A DNA stretch of 64,000 nucleotides from Malania oleifera (lineage: Eukaryota; Streptophyta; Magnoliopsida; Santalales; Ximeniaceae), in assembly GCF_029873635.1 (NCBI RefSeq), contig NC_080423.1:97708397-97772396 (forward strand), given 5' to 3'. Positions 6,420 to 61,925 of this stretch are shown one piece after another. The translations under genes were made by a program, and so were the position numbers. The stretch's first letter is position 1, and each line of letters begins with the position of its first letter. The notes beneath the pieces are model-generated. The model worked only from the letters and a program-made list of their open reading frames with translations. It did not search any database and was not told the DNA's origin.

Positions 6420-8562
6420 TGTTGTAATTGGTGTGATCCCAAAAGTGGGGTGAATTGGGTTTTAAAAGCATTTTGGTTAAATTAAACATTTACGCCGATT
6501 CACCATATATCATATCCCATTTAATATAATAACGTGTATGAAAAATGATTAAGTTATAAGTGTGAACATACACGTGCAGCATATCTCATTTAAATAAAAG
6601 TGTGCATGCAAATAATTATAACCATTAATGAACAATCATACAAATGTTGAATTTAAAAGGCATAAATTAAATGAGATAAAGAGAGAGCGACACACGATAT
6701 TTATTATCAAGGTTTAGTTAAACCAATCTATGCCCCCGCCTTGGGCATAACCCTCAAGGATTTCACTAAACCTTCTCACTTAAACGGGCAGAGCAGAAGC
6801 CATTTACAATGTCCTTACGGAGCGGACATTCCCCAACTCACTTAACGGGTGAAGCCAACATCATGCACACTTTCTCAGGAGGGTGCATCTCCTAATTCTC
6901 TTAACTGGTCTAAACCAATCCGGTGCTCTCCTAACCTGGTCTGAGCAAGTCCGGGACTATTCATAGGGCTAGTCTCCCTTTTCTGACAACCTGTCGAGAA
7001 TACAACATCAATAATAATAAATTTTTGTACAATAGCGAATGCTTCTCAAAAAGCAGATGTGTACAAATTTAAGACTCAAAACATGCACTCTCTAATAATT
7101 TGAAATATGCTCAGTAGAGTAAGGATGTTATCAAATAATTTTGCACAAATAGAATATGTATGAAAAATGAGTATTATTGTTCTCCTATAAATATTTTTGC
7201 AAATAGAGAATATTTGGAGAATTTAGGAATTTAAGCTCAAGAAAATATTTGTGTTTTAAATAATTTTCTCCCAAAAATATTTATCAAAGAAATAATTGGG
7301 AAAAAACCTAAGCAATACTCTAAAAAATGTTTTCCAAAGATTAAGTGCCTAGTGAGAGTACATGCAAATAAAATGGCCTAAATAAAATACTCTTCTCAAA
7401 AATGATTTTGAAATAAAAGCGTGAAAGAGAATTTGAGAAATTTGTATAAAAGATTTTGCCCCAAAAGAATGATTTTAACAATAAAAAACGTTTTGGGGGA
7501 ACTTTGATTAACAATGCATTAGAGAGAAAATTTAAACTAATGAAAGTTGCTAATCTAAGTTATGGAGAGGGTATTTATAGATTTTTCGAAAATTATGACC
7601 GCTGAGGACACGCTCGGTATTTTGGAAAAGTTTAATTAAAAAATTAATGACGTTTTAGTCCTTAAAAAATTTCTAACCCGAGAGGTTTGGTCAACTATAT
7701 AGAAGGTTCGGTCGACCATATTGACAAATTCGGTCGACCGTGGAACTTTTGAACTACAGGTTCGGTCGACCGTCTTGGTGCAATTCTGAAGCCCTTTGTG
7801 GGTTCGGTCGACCAAGACAAGGTCAGTTGACCGTTCCTATAGATTTGGTTGACCATGGCTAATTTAAACTACAAGGTTTGGTCGACCAAGTAATTGAGTG
7901 TCAGACACGCTTTAGTTCGGTTGACCGTGAACGATACGTTCATTTCAGAATGGTCGACTATACAAAGTCAAAAAGTTGACTTTCGAACGGTTTGGTCGGT
8001 CGTGACAATTATAACTCCACAGGTTCGGTTGATCGTTGCAAATCAAACTTTTGACTTCTAGGCAAACAGTGGTTCGGTCGACCAAGCTAATTATTACTAG
8101 TTTGGTTCGGTCGACCAAGGGCATTAACAATGAATATTTTGCCCAAAAAATCTGACGTCGGTCGACCGAAGGCTTTGCTTTTGCAAACTTCATTTTAACT
8201 CTAATCTTTGACCCTAACCAATTAGTTATTTAAGAAAAAGTTCTCTTGTGAAAAGTGTTGGTTCTTAGGGTCAATCAAAGGTTGTCTGAGCAATCAATCT
8301 ATATCATGCAGATGCATGCGTTATTACAGACCAAAGAAAGAAATTAAATGCAATACAAATAGAACTTTTATGTCTTCTTCTTATACTCTTCAGGTTTGCA
8401 TGGAACAATTAGGATGATGTGAGCTTTAAGTCATTTCTGGCTTCCATCTTCCTCTTTTGTGTGTGCATTCCAAATAATGAACCTGTTCAAAATACTAGAC
8501 ACACACATGAGACACTTGTGTTTGTCAACATCAAAACAGAGATCGGACTCAAAAAGCCAATA
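6420..8562 (-). mobile_element. Solo LTR, family D copy 1 (TSD GAGAG)
   Basis: The LTR is about 2.1 kb and is flanked by a perfect 5-bp duplication, GAGAG, at 6415-6419 and 8563-8567. It opens on the + strand with TGTTGTAATTGG then GTGATCCCAA. Its right end aligns with the right end of the 60021-61925 LTR (TTTGTCA..TCAAAAC). Transcription polarity is minus, from a TATAAATA at 7572-7579 read on the minus strand. There is no internal region, so it is a solo LTR left by recombination. It looks old. The superfamily is unassigned. Confidence 0.82.
7684..8170 (-). repeat. Array of about 14 palindromes TTCGGTCGACCGAA upstream of the LTR TATA box
   Basis: Copies of TTCGGTCGACCGAA and decayed forms (TTCGGTTGACC, TTTGGTCGACCAAG and others) recur every 15-60 nt. 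The full consensus is its own reverse complement, centred on GTCGAC. Relative to the minus-strand TATA box (7572-7579) the array lies about 105-590 nt upstream, so it sits in U3. Function is unknown; placement suggests promoter or enhancer sites. Confidence 0.85.
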
Positions 8563-8613
8563 GAGAGCTAGAACTTACATATATTTGAACACAATGCAAT
8601 TGTTGGCGTGAGC

Positions 8614-10748
8614 TGTAGAGACTTGGATAATTTTCATAATTTAATAATAGGAGAAGGAGAGAAAAAGAATTAAAATTGGGAAAATTAAATAGGGTCTCGT
8701 CGACGAACACAGGGAATTCGTCGATGAGCACATATGAGGGTCTCGTCGACGGGGATGTGTCTCGTCGACGAAAAGATACCGAGAGGTTATTTCCCAAGTT
8801 CTGAATTTCATCGACAAAGAGAAGGTCTTGTCGACGAACGTCCTTCTTGACCTCGTCGACGAAGTGACATGGCTCGTCGACGAAGGCCAGTGTATAAATA
8901 GCCTGAACTTCATTTTTCAATTGAAATTCATGCACGATATTCCCTCTCTCTCTCTCTCTCTCTCTCCTACCTTCTCTCTAGGTTTTCAGGCTGAATTCTC
9001 GCTAATTCGACGATCCGAGGCCACCACGATGCTTTTAAGAAAGTTCTCTTCAAGTCTGCTGGAACGGATCGTTGGTGGGGCTGGTTTGAAAGTCATCCCA
9101 ATTTCAGGGTAAGACATTTTATTAAGTATTTGTCTTTCGCACGGTTATAAGAAATATAGTATACGAAAAAATACTGATGTTTTGTTATGGGAGATGTTAT
9201 TTTCAGGATATTGAGCGGGGAACCCTGTGGGTGTAGGGTCAGAGTACAATAAGGGTTTTTCAGAAATTAGGTAAGGGAAATATGCTATGCTAGGAAGTTT
9301 TAGAATGTATAACAATAGATTTTGTATAAATATTTACAAGCATGTTGATCAGTTTATTTTTCCAGAATATCATGAGTATTATTATTTCAGAAAAATTACA
9401 GTTATGAGGTATGAGATTTTAATTACACAGTTGTGTGACCTGAGTCTATTATAGTTTAATATGTTAATTATGAAGTTTTACAAATATCCAATTATACAAG
9501 TTTATTAGCAAAAAGTAAGATTTATAGCATATTCAATATAACATGATTTCTAAACCATAACACTCAGACAGATATTACGGAAACATCAGATAGACATTTC
9601 AGATATTACAGATAGATATTATAGAAACATTAGATAGATATTTCAGATATTATAGACAGATATTACAGAAACATCAGATAGATATTTTAGATATTACAAA
9701 TATTTCATATTTTACAGTTCAGATTTATAGTGTTATGGTTGCTTTGAAATCATGTTAAAAGCAGTAAGATAATTTTCTATATAGTATTACACAGTATTAG
9801 ATCCCTGAGGAAATTACAGACATAGATATACAGCAGAGCACGGTACCGTTACTAGTACAGATAGATTGTAACCATATAACTCAGATAGTATGTGGATTCC
9901 GCCTAACCGTGTCAGGAGAGATTGCAGTCTCCCCAGTAAACTGGGTTTAGGTGGCCGGTTAGACGATGTTAGATTTGGAGATTGTCCGGAGAGTTTGTAG
10001 TGGGCTAGATTGGCGGATGTTAGAGACAAATTGACTTTCCTGATAGGCCAACCAGAGTAAGTCCAGCCTATGGGCCGCACAACCCTATCATGAGGGATTA
10101 AATCATGACATACAAATCCCAGGGTATAGCAAAAGTTCCTATGTATAGATATATCACACAGCAGCAGTTATATTATTATATTAGTAGTATGTACAGATAG
10201 TAAACTCAGATACACAGCTGTATTTTAAACTACGTGACATGTGTTTTGTACAGTATATCAGCTTACTCATTTTACAGTATCAGTATTATTTCAGTATATT
10301 AAATGTGCAACTCAGCCACCACACACTAGTAATAGCATATTTCCTCTTACTGAGCGTTGTCTCATCCCAGTGACTTACTATTTTTCAAAAGATCCAGTTA
10401 GGCGAGTAGATCAAGTTCACGGGTAGAGGTTGTCTTGCGCTGCCTTTGCTGGGAGGGTAGGTGTTTTATGATATCAGTGAGTTGGGGTAGATTTCAGGTT
10501 TTTGATGTTATCACTGGGTATTTTGTGTTGTGAATATACCTCAGAATATTATAACTTTCTGGTATTGTATATATATGACAGTTTACTGTTTCTTGTATAC
10601 TGCTGCTTAGGTATGTATGGAGTACCAAGTTCCTCAGTACTCTTTTGGGCCTGAGATGTTTTAGTAGTATTTTAGTCAGCTGGTGATATATTTTATAAAT
10701 ATTATTATGGAAGAAAAAAATAATATATATAAGTAGCTGGTCGTTACA
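8614..10748 (+). mobile_element. Solo LTR, Ty3/gypsy-type, family E copy 1 (TSD TGAGC)
   Basis: A 2.1-kb LTR starts TGTAGAGACTTGG and ends GGTCGTTACA, flanked by a perfect TGAGC duplication (8609-8613 and 10749-10753). TATAAATA is at 8893-8900. The downstream part shares the block GGGCCGCACAACC..TCATGA with the LTR at 35190-37135 and more weakly with those of element A. The region 9590-9680 holds short ACAGATAGATATT-like repeats. No internal region is attached. Confidence 0.85.
8695..8886 (+). repeat. Array of 8 TCGTCGACGA palindromes ending about 6 nt before TATAAATA
   Basis: Eight copies of the self-complementary TTCGTCGACGAA / CTCGTCGACGAG motif, some with CpG-to-TpG or CpA changes, lie 10-30 nt apart. 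They end at 8886; the TATA box is 8893-8900. This is a compact upstream promoter array in the LTR. Confidence 0.9.
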
Positions 10749-10753
10749 TGAGC

Positions 10754-11715: not shown

Positions 11716-11753
<38 letters not shown>

Positions 11754-12204: not shown

Positions 12205-12600
12205 TGGAAAATTTATAGTTGTTACACCCATATTTTTAGCCTAATAATTAGGTTGTATGATCTTGTGTTTTATTTGAGTAGTCCTCCTTTATAGAAGGGT
12301 CTTATGTTGTGATATGTGGCTCACATACTGAGTGGAAGATATGTACAAAGAGAAAACATGATGGAAATCAGGGTGCAGCGGGGGAAATCGTCGATGGTAG
12401 CCTTGTAACCGTCGATGATTTGGAGCACTGCCTGCAAGATTTTACTCTCTGCCTGAAACCATCGATGGTTCGGCTCAAGGAACCCAGCGCAAATTTCAAA
12501 TTTTGAATAAGGGACATTAAGTTGGTTGAGGTTTGGAGGGAAAACTTACGGGAATTTTATATATACGTTGTCTTAGATGAATATGTAGGTTGGTTGTTCA
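12205..12600 (+). mobile_element. Copia-like LTR fragment next to element B
   Basis: It begins TGTTACACCCATATTTTTAG. It contains three near-palindromes of the form CCGTCGATGG (12386-12470) with TTTACTCTCTGCCTGAAACC between them. A closely similar arrangement follows the copia RT/RNase H fragment at 33675-33790, so the two pieces probably come from one family. The right border with element B is not sharp. Confidence 0.45.
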
Positions 12601-12609
12601 TGTTTGGTG

Positions 12610-14283
12610 TATTGTTCATGTCCTCTGAACAAGAAGATAGTGAATTGTCGACGAGGAGAAGCCGAGAGATTTTGGGAAATTCGGAAATCTCAGGCTCGTC
12701 GACGAAGCCACCACGACGTCGACAAATTCCCTTCGTTGATTCATTAATGAAGACGCCGCCTCGTCGACGAGGTTGGCTGAGTCAAAGGTACTATAAATAT
12801 CTTTTGGGGTTGCTTTGAGGCTAAGTTATCAAAAATCCTCTCCCTCTCTCTCTAGAATTCAAAACATCTCTCCTTCTCTTTAGATTTCTTCATCGTTCGT
12901 TGTTAGAATCGACGATCTGACGTTGCTGCGAGGATCAGAGAAGGAATCTCTATGTGTTATGTGGAACGGAATTTCATTTCGAGGATTTTTGGGTTTTGAC
13001 CCAAAATCAAGGTAGGATTCGATTTTCATTTCCATTTCAGTAGATTTGTAGGGAGTAAGATTGTAAGTAATTATTGTACTGTGGTATATAGGTTTTGAGA
13101 ACTCGGTTCGCTGTTTAGGAATCGTAGAGTTCGGGTTGGATTTTCAGGGAAAGGTAAGGGATTCTATTTATATCGATTATTTTCAAAATCGGATTTGGTA
13201 GAACTATGGTTCACGATCCTGTGTGTTTTGGCTACTTATTTGGGGAAATTTAGCGGGTAAAAATTACGGGGTTTACATGTTACAGATTTGGGAAAAAGGG
13301 GGCGTTGGGTTGCATCTCTGGTTTTGTTGGAAAACTGTGGATATATTATTGAATATATTGTGTTATGGAGATGGTCGTGCCTTGACTTGTTTTAAACTGT
13401 ATTTTGAAAATCGTGATTTTGTGATTACCAAATGTGTGTGGAATGAACTGTTATATGAATATGCATTGAGTTATGATTTGTTGAAATGAGATATGGGAAC
13501 GTGAGTTCCGAATTGTTTCAGGTTGTGAAAGAGTGTCCGACTCTATATCCGAGGGTGTGAAATACCATCTACAAGTGGCAAGAGTGTCCGAATCTATATC
13601 CGAGGGCATGAAATATCGCCTCTTACCGGCTGATCACCGAAGGGTGTGGATCCACCATATGTACTGGTACGATGCCATGTGTCGGGGACGTTGTATTATG
13701 TGGGCCGGCTTTGTGCCGAAAGGTGTGACGACACCAGGTTACTTGATCATGTGTGTGTGCGTGTTGAGAACTATACTGGAACTATTTTGTGAAAGATATT
13801 GGAACTGTATTGAACTGTGTATGCTTTATGTCATGATAACACTCAGATGTCACACACCGATATAACCTGATTCTGCCTTACTAAGAAGTGTCTCACCCCT
13901 CTCGTATGTACATGTTTTCAAGTCCTTCGAGTAACCGGAACTGGCGTCCTAGTGTTGGGAGCCTGGTGGTCGGTTTACTGCGTAAAGTACTAGTGTAAGT
14001 ACTTGGACCGTAACAGGGTTGTCATTTTGGGTACCGTGGGCACCCTGGATTGTGTTTTGTAATATGAAGCTTAGACTCTATTCGTACAGACTTTGGTATG
14101 ATACTATGTATGTATGGAATGAACTTTTTCACTGCATATATACCGTGTATGTGAATGTGTATAGGGTGTACGGGAACCTCACAGGGTCGAACCCTCATTC
14201 ATTATAGTAGTATGTATGATACAGGGATAGGTTAGGTTACTACATCACACCCTGGGTCCCATTGCCGGGTTCAGGGCGTGACA
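12610..14283 (+). repeat. Element B 5' LTR
   Basis: It is homologous to 30165-31909 over most of its length, sharing the GCCGAGAGATTTT and CGAAGGGTGTGGATCCACC blocks and the GGGCGTGACA terminus. TATAAATA is at 12792-12799. A primer-binding-site-like stretch with TAGAGCTAACC follows the end. Confidence 0.8.
12644..12772 (+). repeat. TCGTCGACGA palindrome array in element B 5' LTR
   Basis: About 4-5 copies, including ATTGTCGACGAGG, CTCGTCGACGAAG and CTCGTCGACGAGG, end about 20 nt before TATAAATA (12792-12799). The layout matches the arrays in the other LTRs. Confidence 0.8.
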
Positions 14284-15960: not shown

Positions 15961-16260
15961 GATCGATTGTAGGGGAAAGGTAGTAGTGTTCAGACCTCTT
16001 GGGGAGCAGGAGTATGAATTTGTAGGATCGTGTGTGCATTCGACGCCACAGATTCTATCGGTATTACAAGCATGGAGGCTACTTTTGGACGAATGTCAAG
16101 GGTACCTTGTGACGACCTGCTATTTAACTCGGTATTTTTTTTTTGTATAATAAAATCAATATCATAAATCCAGCTTAGCAGATCATAATCCACCTGGACC
16201 CGTGGGTACCAAGAATATATCAGAACATATAGCAGAAGCCTAAGCAGCAGGAAACATACA

Positions 16261-16262
<2 letters not shown>

Positions 16263-16303
<41 letters not shown>
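16263..16303. repeat. (TA)n microsatellite inside the solo LTR
   Basis: About 20 TA dinucleotides. The corresponding position near the end of element A's LTRs also carries a shorter (TA)n tract (about 22910 and 29970), so this is a family feature. Confidence 0.9.
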
Positions 16304-16307
<4 letters not shown>

Positions 16308-17140
16308 TTATATCATACATCACAATACCAGAGTTATTACAATCACTCTATACATATATACACAACACTCAATCCAAAAAGATGTCTTAGGGTCATTTCC
16401 ACAAAATACAGCTAACCCTATCAAAATACTTACCCTTCTAGAAGGGCAGATCTACCGTACTAGATCAGCGGGGCTTTACCCGCTCTACTATCAGGGGCTC
16501 CTGAAAAGTTTATAAAATTTTGGGGTGAGACACCTCTCAGTAAGGGAAATAAACTAAACCAGTGCGTGGCAACATGAGTATTCCGTGTTATACATATGCC
16601 ACATAGAATATATCCAGTAACTGCTTTTTCAAATCTGGGAAAACATAAATATCATTATAACATGGCAGAACATACTGCATTTTCATAAACATATCTCATC
16701 TCATATAATAATAATACAAAAACATTCCTGGTAGGTTAACTGGTTGTTGTCATGTATTACCCCCGCATGACTGGGTTGTGTGGCCTGAAGGCGGGACCTG
16801 ACAATAGTTGGCCGGCCACTGCCAAGTCAAAAGTACAGTTTGTAAGTCTGATGGGTCTGCCAAACCTGGTCCGCACACCAGGGGCGCTCACACACTTCTT
16901 AAAAACCACATCGACCATCCAATCTCACACCACTCCGTACAGCAGCGTTAACACAAATATCATGATTACGAAGACCATGGACACATAACAACGGTACCGT
17001 GCAAGTGCTAGCCTAGACCAAGCCAACTAGGTTCTGATATCATATAACATATACTGAAAATATGATATATGGATATTTCATATCATTAATTATCAGATCA
17101 ATCATATCATTTTGCATATATATGTATATCATGAAAATCA

Positions 17141-17354
17141 TCGGCCCATACGTCGGTATTACACATTTTTCTATAGCTCGGCCCGTACGCTTGCAAATCG
17201 TAGCACAGCCCGTACGCTAGCAAATCACATCCAAAGCACCGCCTGTACGCCGAAAAAATATGTCCATAGCTCATCCCGTACGCTGGTAAATCATACACAT
17301 AGCACGACCCGTACGCCGACAAACATATATAAAAATCTCTGCCCGTATGCCGGT
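17141..17354 (-). repeat. 33-bp tandem repeats in the solo LTR
   Basis: About six degenerate units built around CGGCCCGTACGC on the + strand, the complement of GCGTACGGGCCG in element A's LTRs. It is the same repeat in inverse orientation, as expected for a minus-strand LTR. Confidence 0.85.
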
Positions 17355-17970
17355 TTTCCATTATAAAAATCTGTATCATAATCACATTTCCAAAAAACAG
17401 TATTTCAAAACAATTTCTACTCATGCCACACTAACAGATTTTTCACATATTCAACATACCATCATTTTAACAGTATTTTATCAAATATAAATCATATATA
17501 TGAACATATTTACTTTCCTAAAATCAAATGTTATATATACATACATTTTCTTAAAAAGAAGTAGCTTAGTTTATCCCCTTACTTGATTCCTAAAAAAAAA
17601 CCCATAAGAAAATTTGTCCCGCACCCGCAAGGTTCCCAACTAAACACCTTGGAAACAACATTCCCCAGAACTAAAGTTCAATATTTCTACGCGTATATCA
17701 CTTTCTACAACTGTCAAATAACCAAATACTAAGTAGAAAGTCTTTCCCTGAATTTGGAATGGCTTCCAACTCAGCCCCACTGACCATCCACTCCGGCAGA
17801 CTTGTAGAGAACTTTCCAAGGAGCGTCGTGGTGGCTTCAGATAGTTGAATCGATGTAAATCCGGCCCGAAATCGAAGAGAGAAGGAGGAGGGACCGAAGG
17901 GTAGGAGAGAAATGACCTATGCAGAAAATTTCATCCAAAAATGAACTTTAGGCCTATTTAAACTGTGGCC

Positions 17971-18208
17971 TTCGTCGACGAGCCACGTCACCTTGTCGAT
18001 GAGGTCAATACAAAATTCGTCGACGAACTCTCCCCTTCGTCGATGAAATTCAGAAAGCCCATAACCTCTCCCAGTATCTTCTCGTCGACGAATCCTAGCC
18101 TCATCGACGAGCTCCTATTGTACCCTCATTGACAAGTCCCCTGTATTCGTCAACAAGGAGTTGAAAAATTCTTGGGATTATCCTTTCAAATTCGCGTTCG
18201 TCGACGAA
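17971..18208 (-). repeat. Array of 9 TCGTCGACGA palindromes in the minus-strand solo LTR
   Basis: Nine copies (for example TTCGTCGACGAG, TTCGTCGACGAA, CTCATCGACGAG) lie immediately upstream, on the minus strand, of the TATA-like box at about 17955-17962. The orientation of the whole LTR is flipped, yet the array keeps its place relative to the promoter. Confidence 0.88.
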
Positions 18209-18289
18209 GTCAACTGCCTTCTTCTGTTCTCAATTTCCATTTCCCATTCGTTTATTATTTAAATACCATTATTCTTCGGGTCGTTACAT

Positions 18290-20944: not shown

Positions 20945-20972
20945 TGTAATAACCCAAGAAATTTATCAAGGC

Positions 20973-21158
20973 TTCATCGACGAACACAGGGGTTTCGTCG
21001 ATGAAGGATCATAAGGACCTCGTCAACAAAGACACGTCTCATTGACGAGAAGATACCAAGAGGGATTTTTGGAATTCTAAAACTCATCGACGATGGGGCA
21101 GGTTCATCGACAAACTTTCTGTTGGACTTGTCGACGAGATGACGTGTCGTCGACGAAT
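20973..21158 (+). repeat. Array of 8 TCGTCGACGA palindromes, element A 5' LTR
   Basis: Eight copies are spaced 15-30 nt apart and end about 7 nt before TATAAGTA (21166-21173). Several copies carry CpG transitions at different positions from the same copy in the 3' LTR, showing independent decay after insertion. Confidence 0.9.
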
Positions 21159-21774
21159 CCGGGTCTATAAGTACTTCTAAAATCGGATTTTGACATAATT
21201 TTAACGCAGAGTCCCCCTCTCTCTATCTAAAAACGCTCCCTAGCCCTTCTCTCTTCCATCCCGGCTCTGTTTCTTACTGGATCGAAGATCTAAGACCACC
21301 ACAATGCTCCTAGTGAAGTTCTCTGCAAGTCTGCTGGAGCTGATCGTTGGTGGAGTTGGTTTGAAATTCATCCCTAATTCAGGGTAAGGCTTTTAGTTGA
21401 TATTTGGCTTTCCCTGTAGTTGTAGAAAACATAGTACGCGTAGAAATACTAAAGTTTAATTTTGAGAAATGTCATTTTCAAGGTGTTGACTAGGGAACCC
21501 AGCGAGTGTTTAGTTGATTGTTTTAGGGGCTTTTTCAAGAATCAGGTAAGCGGATAAACTAAGCTAGTTATTTTATGAAAATATATGGATATTATTACAG
21601 CGTCTGATTTCAGGAAGATAAATATATTTATATACACTTTATGTTTGGGAAATACTGCTGTAAAAGATGATTAAATACGTATGAAACCTATTTCGTGTGG
21701 CATGAGTAGAATTTATAATGAAATACTATTTTTCTGAGAATATGATAAAGATATGGATTTTTATAATGAAAAAT

Positions 21775-21960
21775 CGGCGTACGGATCGAGAATTTTATAT
21801 GATTTGCCAGCGTATGGGCCAAGTTAGGGATATGATTTGTCGGCGTACAAATTGAGCGATGGATATATTTGCCGGCGTACGGGCCGAGTTATGAAAATGT
21901 TTTTCCGGCGTACGAGCCGAGCTATGGTAAAATATGAAATGCCGACGTACGGGTCGATGA
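21775..21960 (+). repeat. 33-bp tandem repeats, element A 5' LTR
   Basis: About 5-6 units of consensus core GGCGTACGGGCCGAGCTATG. They are downstream of the TATA box, so within the R-U5 or leader part of the LTR. The unit length is a multiple of three, so several frames stay open on both strands. Confidence 0.88.
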
Positions 21961-23249
21961 TTTTCATGATGTATATATAAATGCAAAATGATATGATGAT
22001 ATTGATTTGGTAATTAATGGTATGAAATATCCATGTATCACAGTTTCATTATATGATATATGTTATCAAAACCTAGTTGGCTTGGTTTAGGTTAGCACTT
22101 GTACGGTACTGTTGCTATGTGTTTGTGATCATCACAATATTGTGTTAACGCTACTGTACGGAGTAGCGTGAGGATGCTAGTCAATGTGGTTTTAAGAAGT
22201 GTGAGCGCCCCTGGTGTACGGACCAGATCTGGCAGACCCATCGGACTTACAGACTGTATTTTTGACTTGATAGTGGTCAACCAACCATTGTTAGGTCCCG
22301 CCTTCGGGCCACACAACCTAGTCATGTGGGGGTAATACATGACAACAACCAGCTAACCTACCAGGGTTGTTTTCGTATTATTATTCTATGAGATGAATTA
22401 TGTTTATGAAAATGTAGTATATTCTGCCATGCTATGATGATATATGTTTTTCTCGATATGACATAATAGTTTACTAAATGTGTTTTTGTATGGTTTATGT
22501 ACAACAAGAAATACTCATGTTGCCACACACTAGTATTAGTTTATTTCTCTTACTGAGAGGTATCTCACCCCGAATTATATGAACATTTCAGGAGCCCCTG
22601 ATAGGAGAGCGGATAAGGCTCCGCTGAGATAGTACTATGGATCCGCCCTCTTTGAAGGGTAAGTTTTGGTGGGGACAAATATATTTTGTGGGAAATGTCC
22701 CTACGACTTTCTTTTTGGGATGTATATACAATGGATGTAGTAATTCTGGTGTTGAGATGGATGGTTTTATGTTTATGATATTATGATTTTATGTTTCCTG
22801 CTGCTTATGCTTCCGTTTTGTGTGTCTGTTATATCCCTGGTACCCACGGATCCAGGTGGATTATGATCTGTTGGATTTATTATATTGGTTTTATTATAAA
22901 AGGGAATATATATATATATATGGAAATTGAGCAGGTCATCACAGTTTGGTATCAGAGCCTAGGTTGTTAGGTTCTGTAGACTTTAGGATGTAGCGAAAAG
23001 GATACCAGAGTATAGGAAATGATTTAAGGTTTTGTTCTACAGTCTAAAGGCAGGACTTCCGTGGTGGTTTCTTTGTTTTTCCTAGGGTGACGATTTCAGG
23101 AAAACCATAGTAAACTATTGTCGGGTTTTGTTCCTAGAATGCAAGACTGGGGTTAGGAATGAGTTAAGGAAGTCAAAGTGGGGGACTATGTTAGGTGTGT
23201 AAGGTAAAAGTATAGGATTATTGAGTTGTGTTTGTTGTTTTTCAGGATG

Positions 23250-26324: not shown

Positions 26325-27509
26325 GTGATGGTGAGAGTGCGGACTGGTCAAGGGGAGGAATTTTGTATTTCTGATGATGGAGCTTTGCGGTTCCGTTCCA
26401 GGTTATGTGTTCCTATCGAAGCTGACATCAGGAAGACTATATTGGAGGAGGCTCATAGATCTTTGTATACAGTTCATCCCGGCAGTACGAAAATATACAG
26501 GGATCTGCGAAAGCTTTACAGGTGGAGTGGTATAAAGAAGAAAATTGCCGAGTATGCAGCGCAGTGTTTAACGTGCCAGTAGATAAAAGCTGAGCACCAG
26601 AGGCCGGCAGGGTGGTTGCAGCCGTTATTTATTCCAGAGTGGAAGTGGGATCATATATCTATGGATTTTTTGTCAGGACTCTCGACGGCGTTGCACGGAC
26701 AGAATGCCATTTGGGTGATTGTTGATCGTTTGACTAAGACTGCCCATTTCTTGCCTATCAAGATCATCTACTCCCTCAACAAGTTGGCGAAAATTTACAT
26801 TCAGGAGATAGTTTGTTCACATAGGGTGCCAGTATCTATTGTGTCAGATCGAAACCCGCGCTTTACATCATGTTTTTAAGGGAGCTTGTTGGAAGCTCTA
26901 GGGTCTCAGTTATCTTTTAGCATGACATTTCATCCTTAGTCGGACAGACAGACTGAGAGGACGATACAGATATTGGAAGATATGCTCCGAGCATGCGTAT
27001 TAAATTTTGGGGGTAGTTGGACTTAGTTTATGCCGCTGGCGGAATTTGTGTAAAATAACAGTTATCAGACCAGCATTGGCATGGCACCGTTTGAAGCACT
27101 ATATGGTAGGAGATGTCGTTCTCCTTTATTCTAGGATGAGATGGGTGAGTGGCGTGTTGTGGGGCCAGAGCTGGTACAACAAGCTTGTGATAAAGTTCGA
27201 CTTATCATAGATAGAATCAGTGCAGCTCGGAGCCAACATAAGAGTTACGCTGATAATCGCCACAAGAATTTGGAATTTGATGTGGGTAATCATGTATTTT
27301 TGAAGATAGCTCTGTTAAAAGAGGTTATGCGATTTAGAAAGAAGGGTAAACTTAACCCTAGGTTTATCGGTCCATTTGAGATTCTAGATAAAGTGGGGCC
27401 GGTTGCCTACAGGTTAGCTTTGCCACCTGTATTATCTAGGATGCATGACGTATTCCACGTTTCCATGTTAAGGAAGTACGTCCCAGACCCTTCTCATATT
27501 ATATGGTGA
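26325..27509 (+). pseudogene. Element A integrase and C-terminal domain region
   Basis: The zinc-binding head is near YTVHPGSTKIYRDL ending in CLTCQ (26325-26582). The core domain is at 26616-27060 (WDHISMDFLSGL, IWVIVDRLTKTAHF). A C-terminal segment (27141-27509) contains RFIGPFEILDKVG and DVFHVSMLRKYV, typical of the GPF/GPY region before a chromodomain. It is a fossil. Confidence 0.86.
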
Positions 27510-27982
27510 ATTAGAGTTCAGTGATTCACTGGTGTATGAGGAGGTAGCAGTACAGATTCTGGATAGGAAAGTACATGAATTACGTAACAAAAAGATTCTT
27601 CTGGTAAAATTTTGTGAAGGAATCATGTAGTGGAAGAAGCTTCTTGGGAGTCCGAGGAGCAGATGAAGCAGAATTATCCGCAGCTATTCTAAGAGATTTG
27701 ACAAGTAAAATGTAAGAAAATAGATGATTTTTCTTTTGCAGGTACATGTAAAAGTTTAGTTAGTAAGTAGCATTTTAGTTTTGGGAGAATTTTCTTTTGA
27801 ATATGTAATCTTCTAAGACTCGGAATGTAATCACGATATTCCTCCGCCATAAGTGAGGGTAAGTAATAAAATAAGTAGACTTTTTTGCTTTTAAGGGATG
27901 ATAAGTTATATGAATAGTAAATTTCGAGGACGAAATTTTATAAAGAGGGGATAGTGTAATAACTCAAGAAATTTATCAAGGC

Positions 27983-28170
27983 TTCGTCGATGAACACAGG
28001 GGTTTCGTCGACGAAGGATTATGAGGACCTCGTCGATGAAGACACGTCTCATTGACGAGAAGATACCGAGAGGAGAATTTTTGAAGTTTGAAACTCGTCG
28101 ACGATGGGGCAGGTTCGTCGATGAACTTTCTTCAGGACTCGTCGACGATATGACGTGTCTCGTCGACGAA
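27983..28170 (+). repeat. Array of 8 TCGTCGACGA palindromes, element A 3' LTR
   Basis: Eight copies end about 9 nt before TATAAGTA (28179-28186). Comparison with the 5' LTR array shows mostly CG/TG and CG/CA differences. Confidence 0.9.
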
Positions 28171-28790
28171 TCCGGGTCTATAAGTACTTCTAAAATCAGA
28201 TTTTGACAAAATTTTAACCCAGAGTCCCCTTCTCTCTTTCTAAAAACCCTCCATTCCCCTTCTCTCTTCGATTTTGGCTCCATTTCTTGCCTGATCGAAG
28301 ATCTGAGGCCACCATGACGCTCCTAGTGAAGTTCTCTGCAAGTTTGCCGGAGCTGATCGTTGGTGGAGTTGGTTTTAAATTCATCTCTAATTCAAGATAA
28401 GGCTTTTACTTGATATTTGGCTTTACCTGTAGTTGTAGAAAACATACTATGCATAGAAATACTAAAGTTTAATTATGGGAAAAGTCATTTTCAGGATGTT
28501 GACCAGGGAACCCAGCGGGTGTTGAGTTGATTGTTTTAGGGGCTTTTCAGGAATCAGGTAAGGGGATAAACTAAGCTAGTTATTTTATGAAAATGTATGT
28601 ATGTTATTACAATGTCTGATTTCAGGAAAATAAATATATTTATATATGCTTTATGTTTGGGAAATACTACTGTAAAAGATGATATGTTTAAATATGTATG
28701 AAACCTATTTCATGTGGCATGAGTATAATTTATAATGAAATACTGTTTTCTAGGAATATGATAAAGATATGGATTTTTATAATGAAAAAT

Positions 28791-29009
28791 CGGTTTATGG
28801 GCCGAGAATTTTATATGATTTGTCGGCGTATGGGCCGAGCTATGGATATGATTTGTCGGCGTACGGGCCGAGCTATGGATATATTTGCCAGCGTACGGAC
28901 CGAACTATGGAAATGTTTTGCCGGCGTACGGGCCGAGCTATGGTTATGATTTGTAGGCGTACGAGCTGAGCTATGGTAAAATATGAAATGCCGGCGTACG
29001 AACCGATGA
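28791..29009 (+). repeat. 33-bp tandem repeats, element A 3' LTR
   Basis: About seven units, one more than in the 5' LTR, so copy number has changed since insertion or during it. The core is GGCGTACGGGCCGAGCTATG followed by an AT-rich spacer. Confidence 0.88.
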
Positions 29010-30021
29010 TTTTCATGATGTATATATAAATGCAAAATGATATGATGATATTGATTTAGTAATTAATGGTATGAAATATCCATGTATCACAGTTTCATTA
29101 TATGATATATGTTATCAGAACCTAGTTGGCTTGGTTTAGGCTAGCACTTGCACGGTACAACTGCTATGTGTTCGTGATCATCATGATATTGTGTTAACGC
29201 TGCTGTACGAAATAGCGTGAGGATGGATAGTCGATGTGGTTTTAAGAAGTGTGAGCGCCCTTGGTGTACGGACCAGGTCTCGCAGACCCGTCGGACTTAC
29301 AGACTGTATTTTTGACTTGGTAGTAGTCGGCCAACCATTGTCAGGTCCCGCCTTCGGGCCACACAACGCAGTCATGTAGGGGTAATACATGACAACAGTC
29401 AGCTAACCTACCAGGGGTGTTTTCGTATTATCATTATTATATGAGATGAATTGTGTTTATGAAAATGTGGTATGTTCTGTTATGCTATGATGATATATGT
29501 TTTCCCAGATATGACATAACAATTTACTAAATATGTTTCTGTATGATTTATGTATAACACGAAATACTCATGTTGTCACACACTAGTATTAGTTTATTTC
29601 CCTTACTGAGAGGTGTCTCACTCTGAATTATATGAACATTTCAAGAGCCCCTGATAGGAGAGCGGATAAAACTCCGCTGAGATAGTACTATGGATCTGCC
29701 CTCTTTGAAGGGTAAGTTTCGGTGGAGACAGATAGATTTTGTGGGAAATGTCCCTAGGACTTTCTTTTTGGGATGTATATACCTAAATATAATGGATGTA
29801 ATAATTTTGGTGTTGAGATTGATGGTTTTGTGTTTATGATATTATGATTTTATGTTTCCTGCTGCTTAGGCTTCCGTTTTGTGTGTCTGTTATATCCCTG
29901 GTACCCATGGGTCCAAGTGGATTATGATATGCTGGATTTATTATATTTGTTTTATTATAAAAGGGAAAATATATATATATATATATATATATATGGAAAT
30001 TGAGCAGGTCGTCACAGAGGG

Positions 30022-30164: not shown

Positions 30165-31909
30165 TGTAAGAACCCGACCCATGAGATATGGAATAAATAA
30201 ATAAGAAAAGGGCAAAACAATAATTTGAGCAAGCTTTGTCGACGAAGCTAGTGTTTTCATCAACGAAGGCCCTTCTATTGTTCAGCGACAAAATTCAAAG
30301 GTTCGTCAACGGGGAAAAGCCGAGAGATTTTAAGAAATTTAGAAATCTCAGGCTTATCGACGAAGCCACCATGACGTCGACGAACTCCCTTTGTTGACTC
30401 GTCGACGAAGACACCGCCTCGTCGATTGGGGTTGTTTTGAGGCTAAGTTATCAAAAATCCTCTCCCTTTCTCTCTAGAATTCAGAGCATCTCTCATTCTC
30501 TCTAGATTTCTTTGTCGTTCGTTGTTAGAATCAATAATCTGATGTTACTGCAAGGATCAAAGAAGGAATCTCTATGTGTTCTGTGGAACGAAATTTCATT
30601 TCAAGAATTTTCGGGTTTTGACCCAAAGTTGAGGTAGGGTTTAGTTTTCATTTCCATTTCAGTAGAGCTGTAGGGAGTAAGATTGTAAGTCATTATTGTA
30701 CTGTGGTTTATAGGTTTTCGGAACTCGGTTCGTTGTTTTGGAGCCATAGAGTTCAGGTTGGATTTTTAAGGAAAGGTAAGGGATTCTGTTTATATCGGTT
30801 ATTTTCGAAATCGGATTTGGTAGAATTGTGGTTCACGATCCTGTGTGGGTTTTTGCTACTTACTTGGGGAAATCTAATGAGTAAAAATTATTGGGTGTTC
30901 ATGTTACAGTTTTGGGAAAAAGGGGGCATTGAGTTGCATCTCTAGTTTAGTTGGAAAACCGTGGATGTATTGTTGAACATATTGTGTTGTGGAGATGGTC
31001 GTGCCTTGACTTGTTTTAAACTGTATTTTGAAAATCGTGATTTTGTGATTACCAAATGTGTGTGGAATAAACTGTTATATGAATATGCATTGAGTTGAGA
31101 TATGGGAACGTGAGTTCCGAATTGTTCCATGTTGTGAAAGAGTGTCCAGCTCTATATCCGAGGGTGTGAAATACCACCTGACAGTGGCAAGAGTATCCGG
31201 CTCTATATCCGAGGGCATGAAATATCCTTACCGGCTGATCACCGAAGGGTGTGGATCCACCAAATGTACCGGTATGATGCCATGGGAGCCTGGGGCTATG
31301 CAATGTTCTGGGGACGTTGTATTATGTGGGCCGACTTTGTGCCGAAAGGTGTGATGACACCAGGTTACTTGATCATGTGTGTGTGCGTGTTGAGAACTAT
31401 ACCGGAACTATTTTGTGAAAGATACTGGAACTGTATTGAACTTTGTATGTTTTATGTCATGATAACACTCAGATGCCACACACCGATATAACCTAATTCT
31501 GCCTTACTGAGAAGTGTCTCACCCCTATCGTACGTACATGTTTTCAGGTCCTTCGAGTAACCAGAACTAGCATCCTAGTGTTGGGAGCGTGGTGGCCGGT
31601 TTACTACGTAAAGTACTTGTGTAAGTACTTGGACTGTAACAAGGTTGTCGTTTTGGGTACTGTGGGCACCCTGGATTGTGTTTTGTAATATGGAGCTCAG
31701 ACTCTATTCGTATAAACTCTGGTATAGTACTACGTATGTATGGGATGAACTTTTCAGCTGCGTATATATCGTGTTTGTGAATGTGTATAGGGTGTACAGG
31801 AATCCCACGGGGTCAGACCCTCATTCATTATAGTAGTATGTATGATACAGGGATAGGTTAGGTTACCACATCGCACCCTTGGTCCCATTGCCGGGTTCGG
31901 GGCGTGACA
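30165..31909 (+). repeat. Element B 3' LTR
   Basis: The LTR starts TGTAAGAACCCGACCC and ends GGGGCGTGACA, about 1.75 kb. It aligns with the 5' LTR of B through the CTCTAGAATTCA, CCGAAGGGTGTGGATCC and TGTTGGGAGC blocks. Confidence 0.88.
30234..30426 (+). repeat. TCGTCGACGA palindrome array, element B 3' LTR
   Basis: About 7-8 copies, with more decay than in element A (for example CATCAACGAAG, TTCGTCAACGGG), lie in the U3 part of the LTR. This fits B being older than A. Confidence 0.82.
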
Positions 31910-32036
31910 GCTGGTATATCCCCTGTACCTATGGGTCTGGGTGACTTTGAGTTTGTTAGTATATTATGGTATCAGAGTTATTATGATAATTATTATGTGG
32001 GAAAAAAAATATAGCATAAATTTTAGGTCATTACAG
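31910..32036 (+). mobile_element. Truncated LTR end
   Basis: It begins GCTGGTATATCCCCTG and runs to AGGTCATTACA, resembling the last about 130 nt of the Ty3/gypsy LTRs here (TATATCCCTGGTACCC..GGTCGT(T/C)ACA). It is a remnant of another insertion beside element B. Confidence 0.55.
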
Positions 32037-48356: not shown

Positions 48357-48493
48357 GGCTGAGATTTTGATTAAAATGAATGCCCTAACTTGAAATAGTT
48401 CTCTCCACAATAATACCCTTACTAACTCTCACTAATTAACATACTAACACAGGTGATAATAATAATACCAAAAGACATAAATAACCTCTAACA
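48357..48493 (-). repeat. Copia 3' LTR
   Basis: A short LTR of about 137 nt. It shares GAGATTTTGATTAAAATGAA and CTAACATACTAACAC with 52064-52236. Confidence 0.85.
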
Positions 48494-51400
48494 CTCCCCC
48501 TCAAGCTGGAGCATAAATTTCATATGATCCTAGCTTGTTACAAAGAAATTTAACACGTGATTTGGTAAACAAATCAGCAAGTTGCATAGCAGATTTCACA
48601 TAAGCGGTAGTAATGAGCTTCTGCGCAAGTTTCTTCCGAACAAAGTGGCAATCATCTTCAATGTGCTTCGTCCACTCATGAAAGACCGGGTTGGAGGCAA
48701 AATGAAGAGCAACTTGATTGTCACACATCAACTTCATAGGCTGAGAATGAGAAATACCCAATTCTCCCAACATGTTCTTCAACCAGTATTCTGATTCAGC
48801 ACTTGACTTGCCACCATAGTTTGTTTCTTATTGTTCCAAGAAACCAAATTGCCACTAACCAAGATATAGTACCTAGTTGGGATCTCCGGTCAGAAGGCAA
48901 CCCAGCCCAATCTGCATCTGTATATCCATGGATATAAGTGTGACCCTAATCCCGATATAAAAGACCTCTCTTGGATGCAACTTTGAAATATCTCAAGATG
49001 CAAATTACTGCGTCCCAATGCTTGTCCTCAGAGAATCTATAAATTGACTCACAACACTTGTTGATATATCCGACCGAGTGACTGTGAGGTAATTCAACTG
49101 TCCAACAAGTCTCTGGTATTGTCCGGGACTAGATGGTAAATCACCCATATCCGACACTAACTTCTTGTTAGGATCTATGGGTGTATCAACCAGTTTAAAT
49201 CCCAACAATCCAATTTAATTCAATAGATTAAGAACATACTTCCTCTGTGACAAAACTGTTTCCATACGATATCTTGATACTTCTATAGCCAAGATGTATT
49301 TCCACGGTCCCAAATCTTTGGCTTGAAACTTAGTCTGTAGAAAAAGTTTGAGACTTTGAATGCCTTTATCAACATCACCTGTAATAGCAATATCATCCAC
49401 AGAAACAATAAGAAGGATTCTACCTGATGAAATATGACAAAACGACACAGAATGATCCACTGCACACCGTCGAAGACTAAACTCAAGTACTACAACACTA
49501 AAAGGACCAAAACATGTTCTACGAGACTATTTTAAGTCATATAGAGCCTTCTTGAGCCGACACAGTAAGCCTGACTCCCCTTGAGCAACAAACCCAGGTG
49601 GTTGCTCCATATAAACCTCCTCCTCAAGGTCACTATGCAAGAAGACATTCTTCACATCTAATTGATGTTGAGGCTAGTGACCAGTAGTAGCCAAGGAGCC
49701 GAACAGATGTACTAATGTAAGTTTGGCAATTGGAGAAAAAGTATCAGAATAATCTATACCATACACTTAGTATATCCCTTAGCAACAAAACGGACTTTTA
49801 GATGAGCCACAAAATCATTAGGGTTGACTTTCATAGTGTAAACACAACAACAACCAACACAAACTTGTTAGGAGGAAGAGGTACCAAGTCCCAAGTGCCA
49901 TTGTCATGTAAAACATTAATCTCTTCAACCATAGCATTCTTCACCGAAAATGGGCTAAGGCTTCCAAAAAAGATTTAGGAAGGATAGTAAATGATAAAAC
50001 AGTAACAAAACAATAGTAGGAGGATGATAAGGAGTCATAACAAACATAGTTGGAAATGGGATGTTGGGTACATGTGCATTTACCTTTCTGAACAACAATA
50101 GGAGGATCAAGATCATGGGGAGTATGATCATCAGACGAGGAAACCAAAGGTGTGGTAGTAGAAGCTAAAGGGGACTCTCTTCCTTGGAGTCGCCTTCATG
50201 AATTCACCTGAAAATTAGGATGATCAAGACAATGCGAACGACTCGAACTAGATGGAGACTCAGATGGTTGATTGGGCAAGGACAACAAACTAGAATTTGG
50301 AAGATTAGGCAAAGGAAGGGATTTATTGAGCTCAGAAGCACTCAGGGACAAGGTGTAGTAAGGTGTAGACTCAAAGAAGGTAACATTGGCAGAAACAAAG
50401 AAGCGATGCAATAGAGGACTATAACAATGATATCCCTTTTGAGTATTTGACTAGCTTAGAAAGACACATTTTATAGCATGAGGATCCAACTTATCCACCC
50501 TAGGAGTTAGTTGATGAGTAGAGGAAACACACCTAAATATACGAGGTGGGAGAGATAATAAAGGTGAATTAGGAAAGAGAATGGAGTAGGGAATTTTACC
50601 ACTAAGAATAGAGGATGACATCCTGTTGATTAGCTAAAAAGCAGTAACCAGTAAGTACAACATCACTCCAAAACACTTTAGGTGCATGCATTTGATAAAG
50701 TAAGGTGCGAGTGATTTCAAGAATGTCTTTTTTTCCTCTCTGCAACCCCATTATATGAGGAGTGTGGGCACAAGATGATCGATGGACATTGCCAAATTGA
50801 GTTATATAAGTAGTGAATTGTGCACTGAAATACTCTTTAGCATTCTCACTTCGAAGAATTAGAACTGGCAAACCAAATTGAGTCTTTATTTCAGAACAAA
50901 AGGCTAAAAATAGATGAAATAAATCAGAATGATCTTTTATTAAATATAACCAAGTCATTCTTGAATGATCAATCCACAAAGGTTACAAAGTACTGGAAAG
51001 CCAACTTGGACACAACTCTACTAGGACCTCAAACATCAAAATGAACTAACATAAAAGGGCTTGCAGCCCATTTATTGATTCGGTAATAACATAAAAGGGC
51101 TTGCAGCCCATTTATTGATTCGGTAAGCGAAATGGACATGATGGTGCTTTCCCAATTGACAAGACTCACAATCAAGACTTGGCACAGAACTCAAACTAGG
51201 AACAAGACATTTTGACTTTTCAGTGAAGGATGACCAAGGCGACAATGAATTTGGAAAGGATTGTCATATGCTCCCTCAGCTTCCTCATCTCACGAATGTC
51301 GGCAGTTATAGGTTGCATGACATTAAGCTCCTCATGAATATGCTTCATTTCTCCAAAATAATATGCAATACTCCTATCTCCTTGTTGTAACTAAAAGTAC

Positions 51401-52063
51401 TCTTGGGATAATCATACATACGTGCAAGGTTATTAGAGTGTAGAAGTTTGACATAATCCCAAATCTCTTTGCACGCATCTAGATGCATACACATATGTGG
51501 ATTTTCCTAATCTTGCTAAATAAACCCGAACAGCTTTAGACCATTGAACATAGTTCTTTCCATCCATCTTTTGAGTCGTTATCTGTGGCGGCAATGTAGG
51601 AAGAAAATTTTTTGGATTCATAGATTCCGTTCTAGCACTCACAAATCAGCAGCCACACCAATGTCAAACAAGAAGAAAAATCAAAACTAATTGGGACAAT
51701 CACAAACTATGTGAAGCATCGACACAACCACGGATGAGGTGAACAACTCACCGACGGATATAGCACTGCCACAGCCTCACAACTGGACATACAAACGCTG
51801 CCACTGATTCAAAAAACTCACAAAGAAGCCTTTACAAACCCCGAACTGAGATTAATGGAGTACTGCGGGTGCATGGTCAAAAAAGGTTGGATTTTTGAGC
51901 AAAAAACTGGCCCAACAGCTTGATTATTGTCTGGTGAAGGATTCAGAACATGGCAAAGGAAAATGAGGTGTGGAGGTGGATTTGAGAAGGACAACTACGA
52001 CAATGGCTTTTTCGGAGACGGCTGAGAGGAGTAGGGTTTAGGTTGGATTGCACTTTGATACCG

Positions 52064-52236
52064 TGTTGAGATTTTGATTAAAATGAATAACCTAACTTGA
52101 AGATAGACCTCTCCCTCTATTTATAATACAAATTAAATACATTCTAATGACAATAATATCCTTACTAACTCTCACTAACTAACATACTAACACACTTCAT
52201 AATTATAATACTAAAAGACAAAAATAACCTCTAACA
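52064..52236 (-). repeat. Copia 5' LTR
   Basis: It is bounded by TGTTGAGATTTTG and CTCTAACA on the + strand, 173 nt. On the minus strand it is followed by the primer binding site. Confidence 0.87.
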
Positions 52237-53260: not shown

Positions 53261-53261
53261 C

Positions 53262-58600: not shown

Positions 58601-58616
58601 GGGGGGGGGGGGGGGG
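58601..58616. repeat. G16 homopolymer
   Basis: Sixteen consecutive G residues. The length in the assembly may be unreliable. Confidence 0.9.
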
Positions 58617-58639
58617 AAGAGGAAGCTTATGCAGAAACC

Positions 58640-60015: not shown

Positions 60016-60020
60016 GAGTT

Positions 60021-61925
60021 TGTTAGCTTTACCGTGATCCCAAGAAGGGAGGAATTGGTATTTTTAAAATTTAAGCCCTACGTCAATCTCCTAACACTAA
60101 TATATTCACAATCCTATGGTCAATCTAGTGCAAGTAATGTAAATGTATACCAGAAAGTAAATAAAGCAATTTAATCAAACACATGCACCGGAAAGCAGTA
60201 AAGTAAGGGTGACACGCAGAAATGTTATCGAGCTTCGGCCAATTGCCTACGTCCCTACCTTGGCTAACAAGCACAAAGATTATCACTATAACTTGCTTAC
60301 TTAAACGGGTGTATAGAAATCAGGTCAATTAGCATAGGGCTGACCTCAACCCTTACATACAATTCTTACGGGGCTGGATTATCGCCCCCTCAGGCCACGC
60401 CTGGAATCACTCAGATTTTACAATCAAATGATACAAAAATAGTGCTCTCAAGTAAAGCAGAAATGTACCCAAATACGCACAATCACACACACATCAATAG
60501 CATGGATATAGTGTAAGCTCAGTGATGCAAGTTTTGTTCAATCAATACTCAACACAGTATAATCAGTATGATGCTCAAGAGTATTCAACACAAGCAGTAA
60601 CTTGGAATAAAAACAAGTATTTCAATAGCGCATCAGTATTCCAAGTATTCAAATCAGATAATCAAACTAGTTCAAAAAGAGTTTTCCTCAATGAAAGATG
60701 CACAACATTAGTTTGAAAATAAGTGCTTGTTTGAGAAATCTTTGCACACCAAAAATCAAGCTATTGGATACTTGCAAAAAATATGCAAATATCCTAAGCT
60801 TACTTGGTTTATCCCCACACAAGATTTATAATGAGCAAATTTGTGGGATAAACCTAAGCTAAAACTCACCAAAAGAAATATGGCAATCAATCACTCAAAT
60901 GGGAGTTTCTAGCAAGCTATAGCAATCTAGAAATGTTCACACAATCTCAGAAAATATCAAACGAACGGAAATTTGAGAGTATTTGGCCAAAAGATGTATT
61001 TTCAATAGAGAAGATATTTTGGCTAATCTATTTGCTAATCTATACCTAATCATGCAAATGGACTCATATTTATAGTCAGGGGTAAAGATATAACCGTTTG
61101 GGATATAATGGGAATAATTAAAAAGGTCTCAAAAGATTAAAATCCAATTAGCCCGACTTAACCCAGTTTTACCGCGGTTAAAATAATTTTAACCGGCTGG
61201 GGTTCGTGTGGCTGAATTCAAGTTCAGTCGCTCGGCAAGACACATGCTGAAAAGGTGGTTAATGAATTTCGGTCACTTGGATAGATCTTTGGCACCCCGA
61301 ATCAAAGTCAGTAGCAAAGTTTTGTGACTTCGGGTGCCCGGTCTAACATTCGGTGGCCCGAACACATGTGTTCGGTCGCGCGGGGTTCGTTTTGAACTAA
61401 AAGAATCGGTCGCCCGAGTTGGTGAATAGTCCCTTTCAAGGTGTTCGGGCGCCCGGAGACAGTATGTGCATTTAAGGGTCGGTCGCCCGAGAGCCTAGTC
61501 AATATGTTGACTTGTCACCATTCGGGCGCTCGAGGAGTTTTGTACTCCAAGGGTTCGGTCGCCCGAACTCTCACAAAATGCTTAGATTTGTTCAACTAGA
61601 GCACAATTTCAACACACTTATATATTATATATTATGTGTGTGAGTGTTGGAGCCTAGGGTCTTGCTATTGTCTAATTGAACTTACGATATATCCTGTATG
61701 CATGATGTGCAGGTAAGAAACATACAAACCACATCCTAGGTTACTATTACAGACCCATACTACAGACATTAAATTTACAATTACAAATTACAAGTCTTCG
61801 GGGTCTTCATGTTTCTTCAAGTGTCCTTCCTTGGGATATTTATTTGAGCCTGTACAAACACTTGACAATCATCAAATATCAGTATTTGTCATTTTCAAAA
61901 CTGGGTGCGACCTATAAGGTCAACA
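60021..61925 (-). mobile_element. Solo LTR, family D copy 2 (TSD GAGTT)
   Basis: It runs from TGTTAGCTTTACCGTGATCC to AAGGTCAACA, 1.9 kb, with a perfect GAGTT duplication at 60016-60020 and 61926-61930. GTGATCCCAA stands 13 nt after TGTT exactly as in the 6420-8562 copy, and the right ends align. It is minus-oriented, with TATAAATA read on the minus strand at 61067-61074. Confidence 0.87.
61222..61568 (-). repeat. Array of about 10 TCGGTCGCCCGA near-palindromes upstream of the LTR TATA box
   Basis: Variants include TTCGGTCGCCCGAA, TTCGGGCGCCCGG, TTCGGGCGCTCGAG and CGGTCGCGCGG. The GGGCGCCC form is a perfect palindrome. The array is about 150-500 nt upstream, in LTR sense, of the TATA box at 61067-61074. 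The position equals that of the 7684-8170 array in the sister LTR, but the core is different. Confidence 0.86.

Follow-up and report, generated by a model that had tools for sequence, protein, structure and literature searches.

We found that the long terminal repeats (LTRs) of the retrotransposons nested in a 64,000-nucleotide stretch of the 1.49-Gb Malania oleifera genome (contig NC_080423.1, positions 97,708,397 to 97,772,396; hereafter the window) carry arrays of short palindromes upstream of the TATA box, which confirms the observation made in the original prediction. Each array is probably the upstream regulatory part of the LTR promoter, a row of putative sites for a host protein that binds as a symmetric dimer. 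LTR ends were set by terminal motifs and target-site duplications (TSDs), and six insertions have TSDs, exact in A, C, D, F and H and matching at four of five bases in E. The predicted LTR coordinates stood when the ends were checked, and the predicted count of eight did not, the listed copies plus the 3′ LTR of element B making nine. C and D are inserted within element B, which keeps both of its LTRs; the 5′ boundary of the B 5′ LTR could not be placed, and the predicted 12610 was adopted. The LTRs and their arrays are listed below.

8614-10748, + strand: LTR A (Ty3/gypsy), solo by the TSD criterion (TGAGC, exact); array 8697-8883 of eight TCGTCGACGA units, 186, 165, 140, 121, 75, 55, 30 and 9 bases from the TATA box at 8893.
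8773-8786, + strand: block AAGATACCGAGAGG, not palindromic, filling the wide space that separates units 4 and 5 of the A array, mostly kept in the alignment of A, C, D and F; B carries a related block, AAGCCGAGAG.
20945-22943, + strand: LTR C 5′ (Ty3/gypsy), of an element with both LTRs (TSD GAGGG, exact); array 20974-21156 of the gypsy eight units, CpG-decayed; TATAAG box near 21166.
27955-30016, + strand: LTR C 3′ of the same element; array 27984-28169 of the gypsy eight units; box near 28179.
16108-18288, - strand: LTR D, solo (TSD AGGTA, exact); array 17972-18207 of the gypsy eight units plus one distal unit; TTTAAATA box near 17962.
35190-37135, - strand: LTR F, solo (TSD ACATA, exact); array 36816-37054 of the gypsy eight units plus one distal unit; TATA near 36806.
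12610-14283, + strand: LTR B 5′; array 12645-12770 with four recognisable units; TATA at 12792; downstream gag and protease open reading frame (ORF) pieces match Pfam.
30165-31909, + strand: LTR B 3′; array 30236-30428 of eight units spaced as in the gypsy LTRs, the last placed by eye.
6420-8538, - strand: LTR E (Sirevirus-like), solo (TSD matching 4/5); array 7709-8168 of 14-15 CGGTCGACCG units; TATA near 7579.
60021-61925, - strand: LTR H (assigned to Sirevirus), solo (TSD AACTC, exact); array 61225-61565 of 9 CGGGCGACCG/CGGGCGCCCG units; TATA near 61074.
33676-33772, + strand: array of LTR K, a 3′ LTR of a probable Ty1/copia element starting near 33578, with three clear AACCGTCGACGGTT units and one weak.
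12386-12470, + strand: fragment G, which has three ACCGTCGACGGT-like units similar to the K array and a TATATA near 12559.

Units were searched in the window LTRs at up to three mismatches, and all nine LTRs were found to bear them. In the eight LTRs with a TATA-like box (so termed because the box is TTTAAATA in D and TATAAG in C), the array sits upstream of the box, with 8 units in A, 8 in C5′, 8 in C3′, 9 in D, 9 in F, 4 in B5′, 15 in E and 9 in H. The gap from the end of the nearest unit to the box is 9 bp in A, C5′, C3′, D and F, 21 bp in B5′, 129 bp in E and 130 bp in H. The claims that every long LTR has an array and that the array always lies on the upstream side of TATA, in inverted LTRs too, were thus borne out (nine of nine LTRs; 8/8 with a box, gaps of 9-130 bp). 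As predicted, B3′ has an array (8 units inside its first 270 bp) and no placeable TATA box, because a 36-bp deletion relative to B5′ removed it. Downstream of the box, the gypsy LTRs have 2-5 weak matches at the same threshold, one of which, in F, is within two mismatches. Exact copies of TCGTCGACGA occur 17 times in the window, all within the U3 regions of A-D and F; at one mismatch the count is 36 (35 in these U3 regions and one in the K array), and at two mismatches 69, with 15 outside the U3 regions. The unit cores given in the original prediction needed correction for the fourth, which is actually CGGGCGACCG/CGGGCGCCCG, and the K array (33676-33772) and its relative at 12386-12470 had been overlooked.

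Palindromes were compared with dinucleotide shuffles upstream of TATA and in same-length and whole downstream stretches. The results showed that perfect 10-bp palindromes upstream exceeded the shuffles in six of the nine LTRs (count reached in 0-1 of 500), with no excess in C5′ (105/500), H (42/500) or B3′ (120/500). When 12-bp palindromes with one mismatch were counted, C5′ and H were enriched (0/500 shuffles each) and B3′ still was not (161/500); eight of nine LTRs, all save B3′, were therefore enriched upstream on at least one of the two measures. The same-length downstream stretches were enriched in none of the nine. Over the whole downstream LTR, perfect palindromes were in excess in C5′, C3′ and D (0-1/100 shuffles), which we attribute to (AT)n runs, and 12-bp near-palindromes were in excess in E (2/100).

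The same placement was seen in copies elsewhere in the genome. Among the 40 matches listed for each family, we took 8 loci for A, 30 for E and 20 for H, these 58 copies including those of the window and paired LTRs of one element. Counted at up to two mismatches, with overlaps kept, within 600 bp on either side of TATA, the units numbered 532 upstream and 2 downstream (A 64/2, E 307/0, H 161/0), which strongly supports the predicted promoter placement. In 18 of 20 H copies, TATAAATA is found at the aligned position. First-look genome candidates, which indicate the scale, number 13,623 for A, 8,145 for E and 5,494 for H, with 40 of each scored, so that these are not confirmed copies; generality rests on the families present in this window. 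The K family has 75 genome matches, and the four stretches fetched are all LTRs (about 460-490 bp in the three with a found start) followed immediately by a primer site. Each has 4-5 AACCGTCGACGGTT-like units (up to four mismatches in 14) with a TATATA box downstream of them (19 units upstream, 0 downstream); the window copy of K is without the further units and TATA box of these relatives. A cluster scan for like palindromes in the window added one array, that of K, at 33689. That scan, to which the decayed arrays of B and F were invisible, found none in a degraded minus-strand Ty1/copia copy at 48407-52236 (RVT_2 match, short direct repeats at its ends), and arrays may therefore not be universal.

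The arrays are not all independent. In A, C5′, C3′, D and F, the units lie about 186, 165, 140, 121, 75, 55, 31 and 10 bases (within 3) before TATA, the distances agreeing within 1 bp across the five LTRs except in C5′ (within 3). These LTRs are alignable at 69-75%, and their post-TATA sequence is 60-70% identical between families. The spacing in B3′ (21, 25, 21, 51, 20, 25, 20) resembles that of the gypsy LTRs (21, 25, 19, 46, 20, 24, 21), with 40 of 5040 permutations as close. E and H align over the array (blastn 2.6e-6; global alignment identity 51.5%) and have a common run of seven spacings with a total difference of 4 bp (4/20000 permutations). The spacing tests omitted one overlapping weak hit in E, the distal ninth unit of D and F and the weak H sites 647 and 712; the H-E comparison also omitted a 106-bp interval, and the start of the last B3′ unit was set by eye at 255 (252 in the unit search). 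With one homologous gypsy array, which B matches in spacing, and another common to E and H, the families first noted therefore give two independent arrays. Convergence of eight families is rejected, and the independence between families put forward in the original prediction is mostly refuted by the criterion set there, alignment of the arrays as one homologous sequence; independence survives between lineages, namely Ty3/gypsy, Sirevirus copia and a probable copia family with short LTRs. No relative came from scanning viral contigs (28 and 2 stretches) and prokaryote genomes (at least 118) for the pattern, and 0/148 listed loci match the window (blastn 1e-4); only one of them, L079, has less than 50% GC around the match, and this is an unrelated tandem repeat.

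The units are more constrained than the sequence between them. Across A, C3′, D and F, units are 83% identical compared to 61% for spacers, and 98% compared to 83% when scored as transversion-free; none of 177 slid masks reached the difference on either measure. Most unit mismatches in the five gypsy copies are C>T or G>A (38/42), and the four A/T positions of the unit have 2 mismatches in 160 letters. Similarly, 733 of 802 unit mismatches in the 30 E copies are C>T or G>A, and transversion-free agreement is 97.3% in units and 93.7% in spacers (0/450 slid masks as good). The 20 H copies gave 97.7% and 95.2% without a slid control, in a unit set that counted site 712 though 0/20 copies match there within two mismatches. 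These contrasts bear on a neutral origin, in which a short promoter segment would have been tandemly duplicated and kept by descent; the K arrays do resemble duplicated blocks of about 72 bp (spacings 49, 22, 50, 22 in L221 and L222), but duplication would carry the spacers along, whereas the units are conserved amid diverged spacers, and we regard such an origin as very unlikely. Unit flanks are position-specific, and homogenisation between units therefore does not explain unit identity. Gap openings (9 in 1164 aligned array bases, 47 in 3493 downstream) differ modestly and were not relied on.

Between the 5′ and 3′ LTRs of C, CpG decay affects 7/20 sites in units and 25/66 after TATA. Units thus decay like other CpGs once inserted, and the constraint therefore acts before insertion, on active copies; in our reading, units are invariant in active copies and become methylated and decay after insertion. 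An improbable alternative is that the arrays are CpG platforms, whose dense symmetric CpGs would serve methyl-CpG readers or set a CpG island, the exact palindrome being less important. The CpG observed/expected ratio is 1.10-1.89 upstream and 0.45-0.87 downstream of TATA across all nine LTRs, the decay pattern suggests unit methylation, and CpG islands are bounded by repeated motifs in Sireviruses (PMC2829016). However, CpG content alone needs neither the nearly invariant A/T positions of the gypsy unit nor a fixed register.

The analysis establishes the array position, the unit sequence, the fixed gypsy register and the constraint on units in copies that were then transposing. The dimeric-factor sites proposed in the original prediction are still the best explanation; their placement is supported, and we infer that the ligand is a dimeric transcription factor with an activating role. 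Such a host factor would bind the double-stranded DNA units just upstream of TATA, and many sites per LTR would allow cooperative binding that persists when individual sites are lost to CpG decay following host methylation of a copy. The eight gypsy sites are grouped as four pairs with a spacing of 19-21 bp (about two helical turns), and this arrangement, with the last pair ending 9 bp from TATA, suggests two adjacent dimers contacting the start-site machinery. The lineages use variants of one layout (TCG-TCGA-CGA; CGG-TCGA-CCG; ACCG-TCGA-CGGT), and related factors may therefore be involved. A dimer is favoured as the best fit to the strict TATA-adjacent place, the 10-bp symmetry with asymmetric flanks, the A/T constraint and the survival of outer half-sites in H. 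Heat-shock elements (TTCnnGAA) were rejected by eye for their spacing, and helical phasing was rejected as a general rule.

Several observations weigh against dimer binding. We know of no factor that binds these sequences. Symmetry is broken in H, where most units are CGGGCGACCG with a mismatched inner pair, the outer half-sites surviving. Phasing at 10.5 bp holds in E only (R 0.78; 0/5000 jitters as high) and fails in H and the gypsy arrays, a peak near 11 bp appearing only on a period scan. Within families, units score below spacers on plain identity (E 0.743/0.822, A 0.832/0.887, H 0.763/0.867) because CpGs decay fast, and within one family the constraint is visible in the transversion measure only; for the 8 A-family copies this contrast is weak, being reached by 21 of 177 slid masks. 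RNA folding is also stronger than in shuffled sequence, with z-scores of -4.14 (A), -4.55 (C3′), -5.04 (E) and -4.39 (H), and 0/200, 0/200, 0/100 and 0/100 shuffles as stable, respectively.

The folding result would suit an unlikely alternative in which the palindromes act in RNA: with U3 in the 3′ end of element RNA or in read-through, the units would pair and be used by the element or be processed into silencing small RNAs, a route proposed for maize Sireviruses. According to two papers citing Bousios 2016 (Genome Res 26:226), PMC10760457 and PMC5311732, the LTR palindromes of maize Sireviruses are small-RNA hotspots, placed in an LTR cis-region with strong predicted RNA structure, as here; the maize consensus, CACCGGACNNNGTCCGGTG, differs from the units here. 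However, such z-scores are to be expected, since any array built from a single palindrome folds well, and ten-base palindromes by themselves give 3-bp stems only. In the four readable copies, the nearest gypsy unit is flanked by the pair C..A, so longer stems are not selected. Furthermore, the constant 9-bp gap to TATA has no obvious RNA role, and selection on the element would not favour being a target of silencing.

Binding by a dimeric factor remains our preferred reading. A like architecture in Ty3/gypsy and a further family, with an eight-site register and selection followed by decay, argues for a common host factor. The arrays supply concrete 10-bp candidate sites and may be a common switch by which host proteins control these elements. 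A wider proposal, that GTCGAC-centred arrays are a general plant LTR promoter module for which unrelated lineages independently acquired or exchanged sites for one dimeric-factor family, is tentative and on balance doubtful; if true, much of the retrotransposon complement of the genome could be under a single host regulator, with the register kept against CpG decay.

Families A and C are Ty3/gypsy by their order of gag, protease, reverse transcriptase and integrase. C matches Pfam Retrotrans_gag, RVP_2, RVT_1, Integrase_H2C2 and SH3_Tf2-1, and in an A-family internal region (L188) 6/6 gypsy queries match in gypsy order and 0/4 copia queries match. The C ORF piece at 27472-27627, where a C-terminal chromodomain was sought, has no Pfam match; family C may be a chromovirus of Tekay/Del type. 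The TCGTCGACGA arrays of A, B, C, D and F lack the Sirevirus CGG-CCG signature.

Family H is a Sirevirus on the strength of its primer-site junction, its tract, the signal at its LTR end and its copia domains, which stand in copia order. Compared with the primer-site junction CA-ATTGG-TATCAGAGC, two H elements have one mismatch each (L219, AACA-ATTGG-TATTAGAGCC; L220, AACA-ATTGG-TATCAAAGCC). In L219, the one element examined for it, a AGGGGGAG tract at 5683 lies 10 bp before the 3′ LTR TG at 5693, the gap holding AA instead of the usual AT, and a second copy of the tract is at 5182. The ORF pieces of L219 match Retrotran_gag_2, zf-CCHC, Pol_BBD, SH3_retrovirus and then RVT_2 (6/7 matched), and 0/6 gypsy queries match it. 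The C-rich integrase signal that Sireviruses have about 21 bp from the LTR end is represented by a C-run followed by TTGGGATCACGGTAAAGCTAACA in L220 and is similar in L219.

E fits the Sirevirus plan, with CGG-CCG units from LTR position 371 and TATA at 960 of 2119. Between two E-family LTRs, L187 (C8:24529000-24533700) contains a primer site of the tRNA-Met type; a clean CA-ATTGG junction and any ORF of at least 80 amino acids are lacking, and E may therefore be a non-autonomous or decayed family. Beside 10 further E copies (L189-L198, 3.6-5 kb each), the sole pol match was a copia integrase in opposite orientation in L193. As no coding region was found for E, its Sirevirus membership rests on the LTR. 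Family K is probably copia: the ORF at 32896-33639, which ends just within the start of the K LTR, has no Pfam match at an E-value of 1 and matches the 3′ part of the L219 copia pol by tblastn (34%, 2.8e-37); K has no ATTGG junction.

Arrays of this kind have been known in Sireviruses since 2010, contrary to the prediction's statement that no description was known. According to Bousios et al. 2010 (BMC Genomics 11:89, PMC2829016), Sirevirus LTRs have palindromic, CpG-rich repeated motifs with CGG-CCG, in at least 8 copies before TATA in the first half of the LTR, starting 200-400 bp into it, with TATA near its middle. The Vitis Sirevirus motif given there, CGGTCGACCG, is the core of LTR E. H shares with Sireviruses the primer-site junction, AGGGGGAG 10 bp before the LTR and the C-rich LTR end, and its array is the published repeated motif (PMC2829016). 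That paper calls the motif Sirevirus-specific and absent from classic retrotransposons, the set analysed being Ty1/copia, and leaves the function of the palindromes open. Unlike this motif, the gypsy TCGTCGACGA arrays lack CGG-CCG and lie 9 bp from TATA, and K has its array in an LTR of about 460-490 bp without an ATTGG junction. Tnt1 and other retrotransposons also have repeated, sometimes symmetric cis-acting LTR boxes, but as two or three tandem motifs, whereas here at least eight stand at fixed positions (PMC2829016, PMC10760457). No description of such arrays in Ty3/gypsy LTRs was found in the accessible open-licence literature, which is weak evidence of absence; the available text of PMC11302176, PMC6911290 and the review PMC10794571 describes none for Ty3/gypsy. 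New here are the occurrence of this architecture in Ty3/gypsy and in a family outside the Sireviruses, its fixed register and the signature of selection.

Other features of the window were noted. A gypsy block about 100-200 bp past TATA (9015-9110 in A; C, D and F likewise) looks conserved (GCCACCACGACGCT...CAAGTCTGC...GATCGT.GGTGG), and after it a splice-donor-like CAGGGTAAG occurs in A, C5′ and F, possibly marking a leader exon. The region 12221-12646, 5′ of the B 5′ LTR, begins with TGTTACACCC and bears a K-like palindrome array. The first 140 bp of the B 3′ LTR are absent from the B 5′ LTR, so that recombination or truncation may have occurred near 12221-12646. Directly after the B 3′ LTR, 31910-32216 holds what seems to be another LTR's end (GGTCATTACA) and, behind it, a 102-bp tandem duplication. 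The ORF at 1540-2091 has a Cys/His-rich stretch that presumably resembles the WRC domain of growth-regulating factors.

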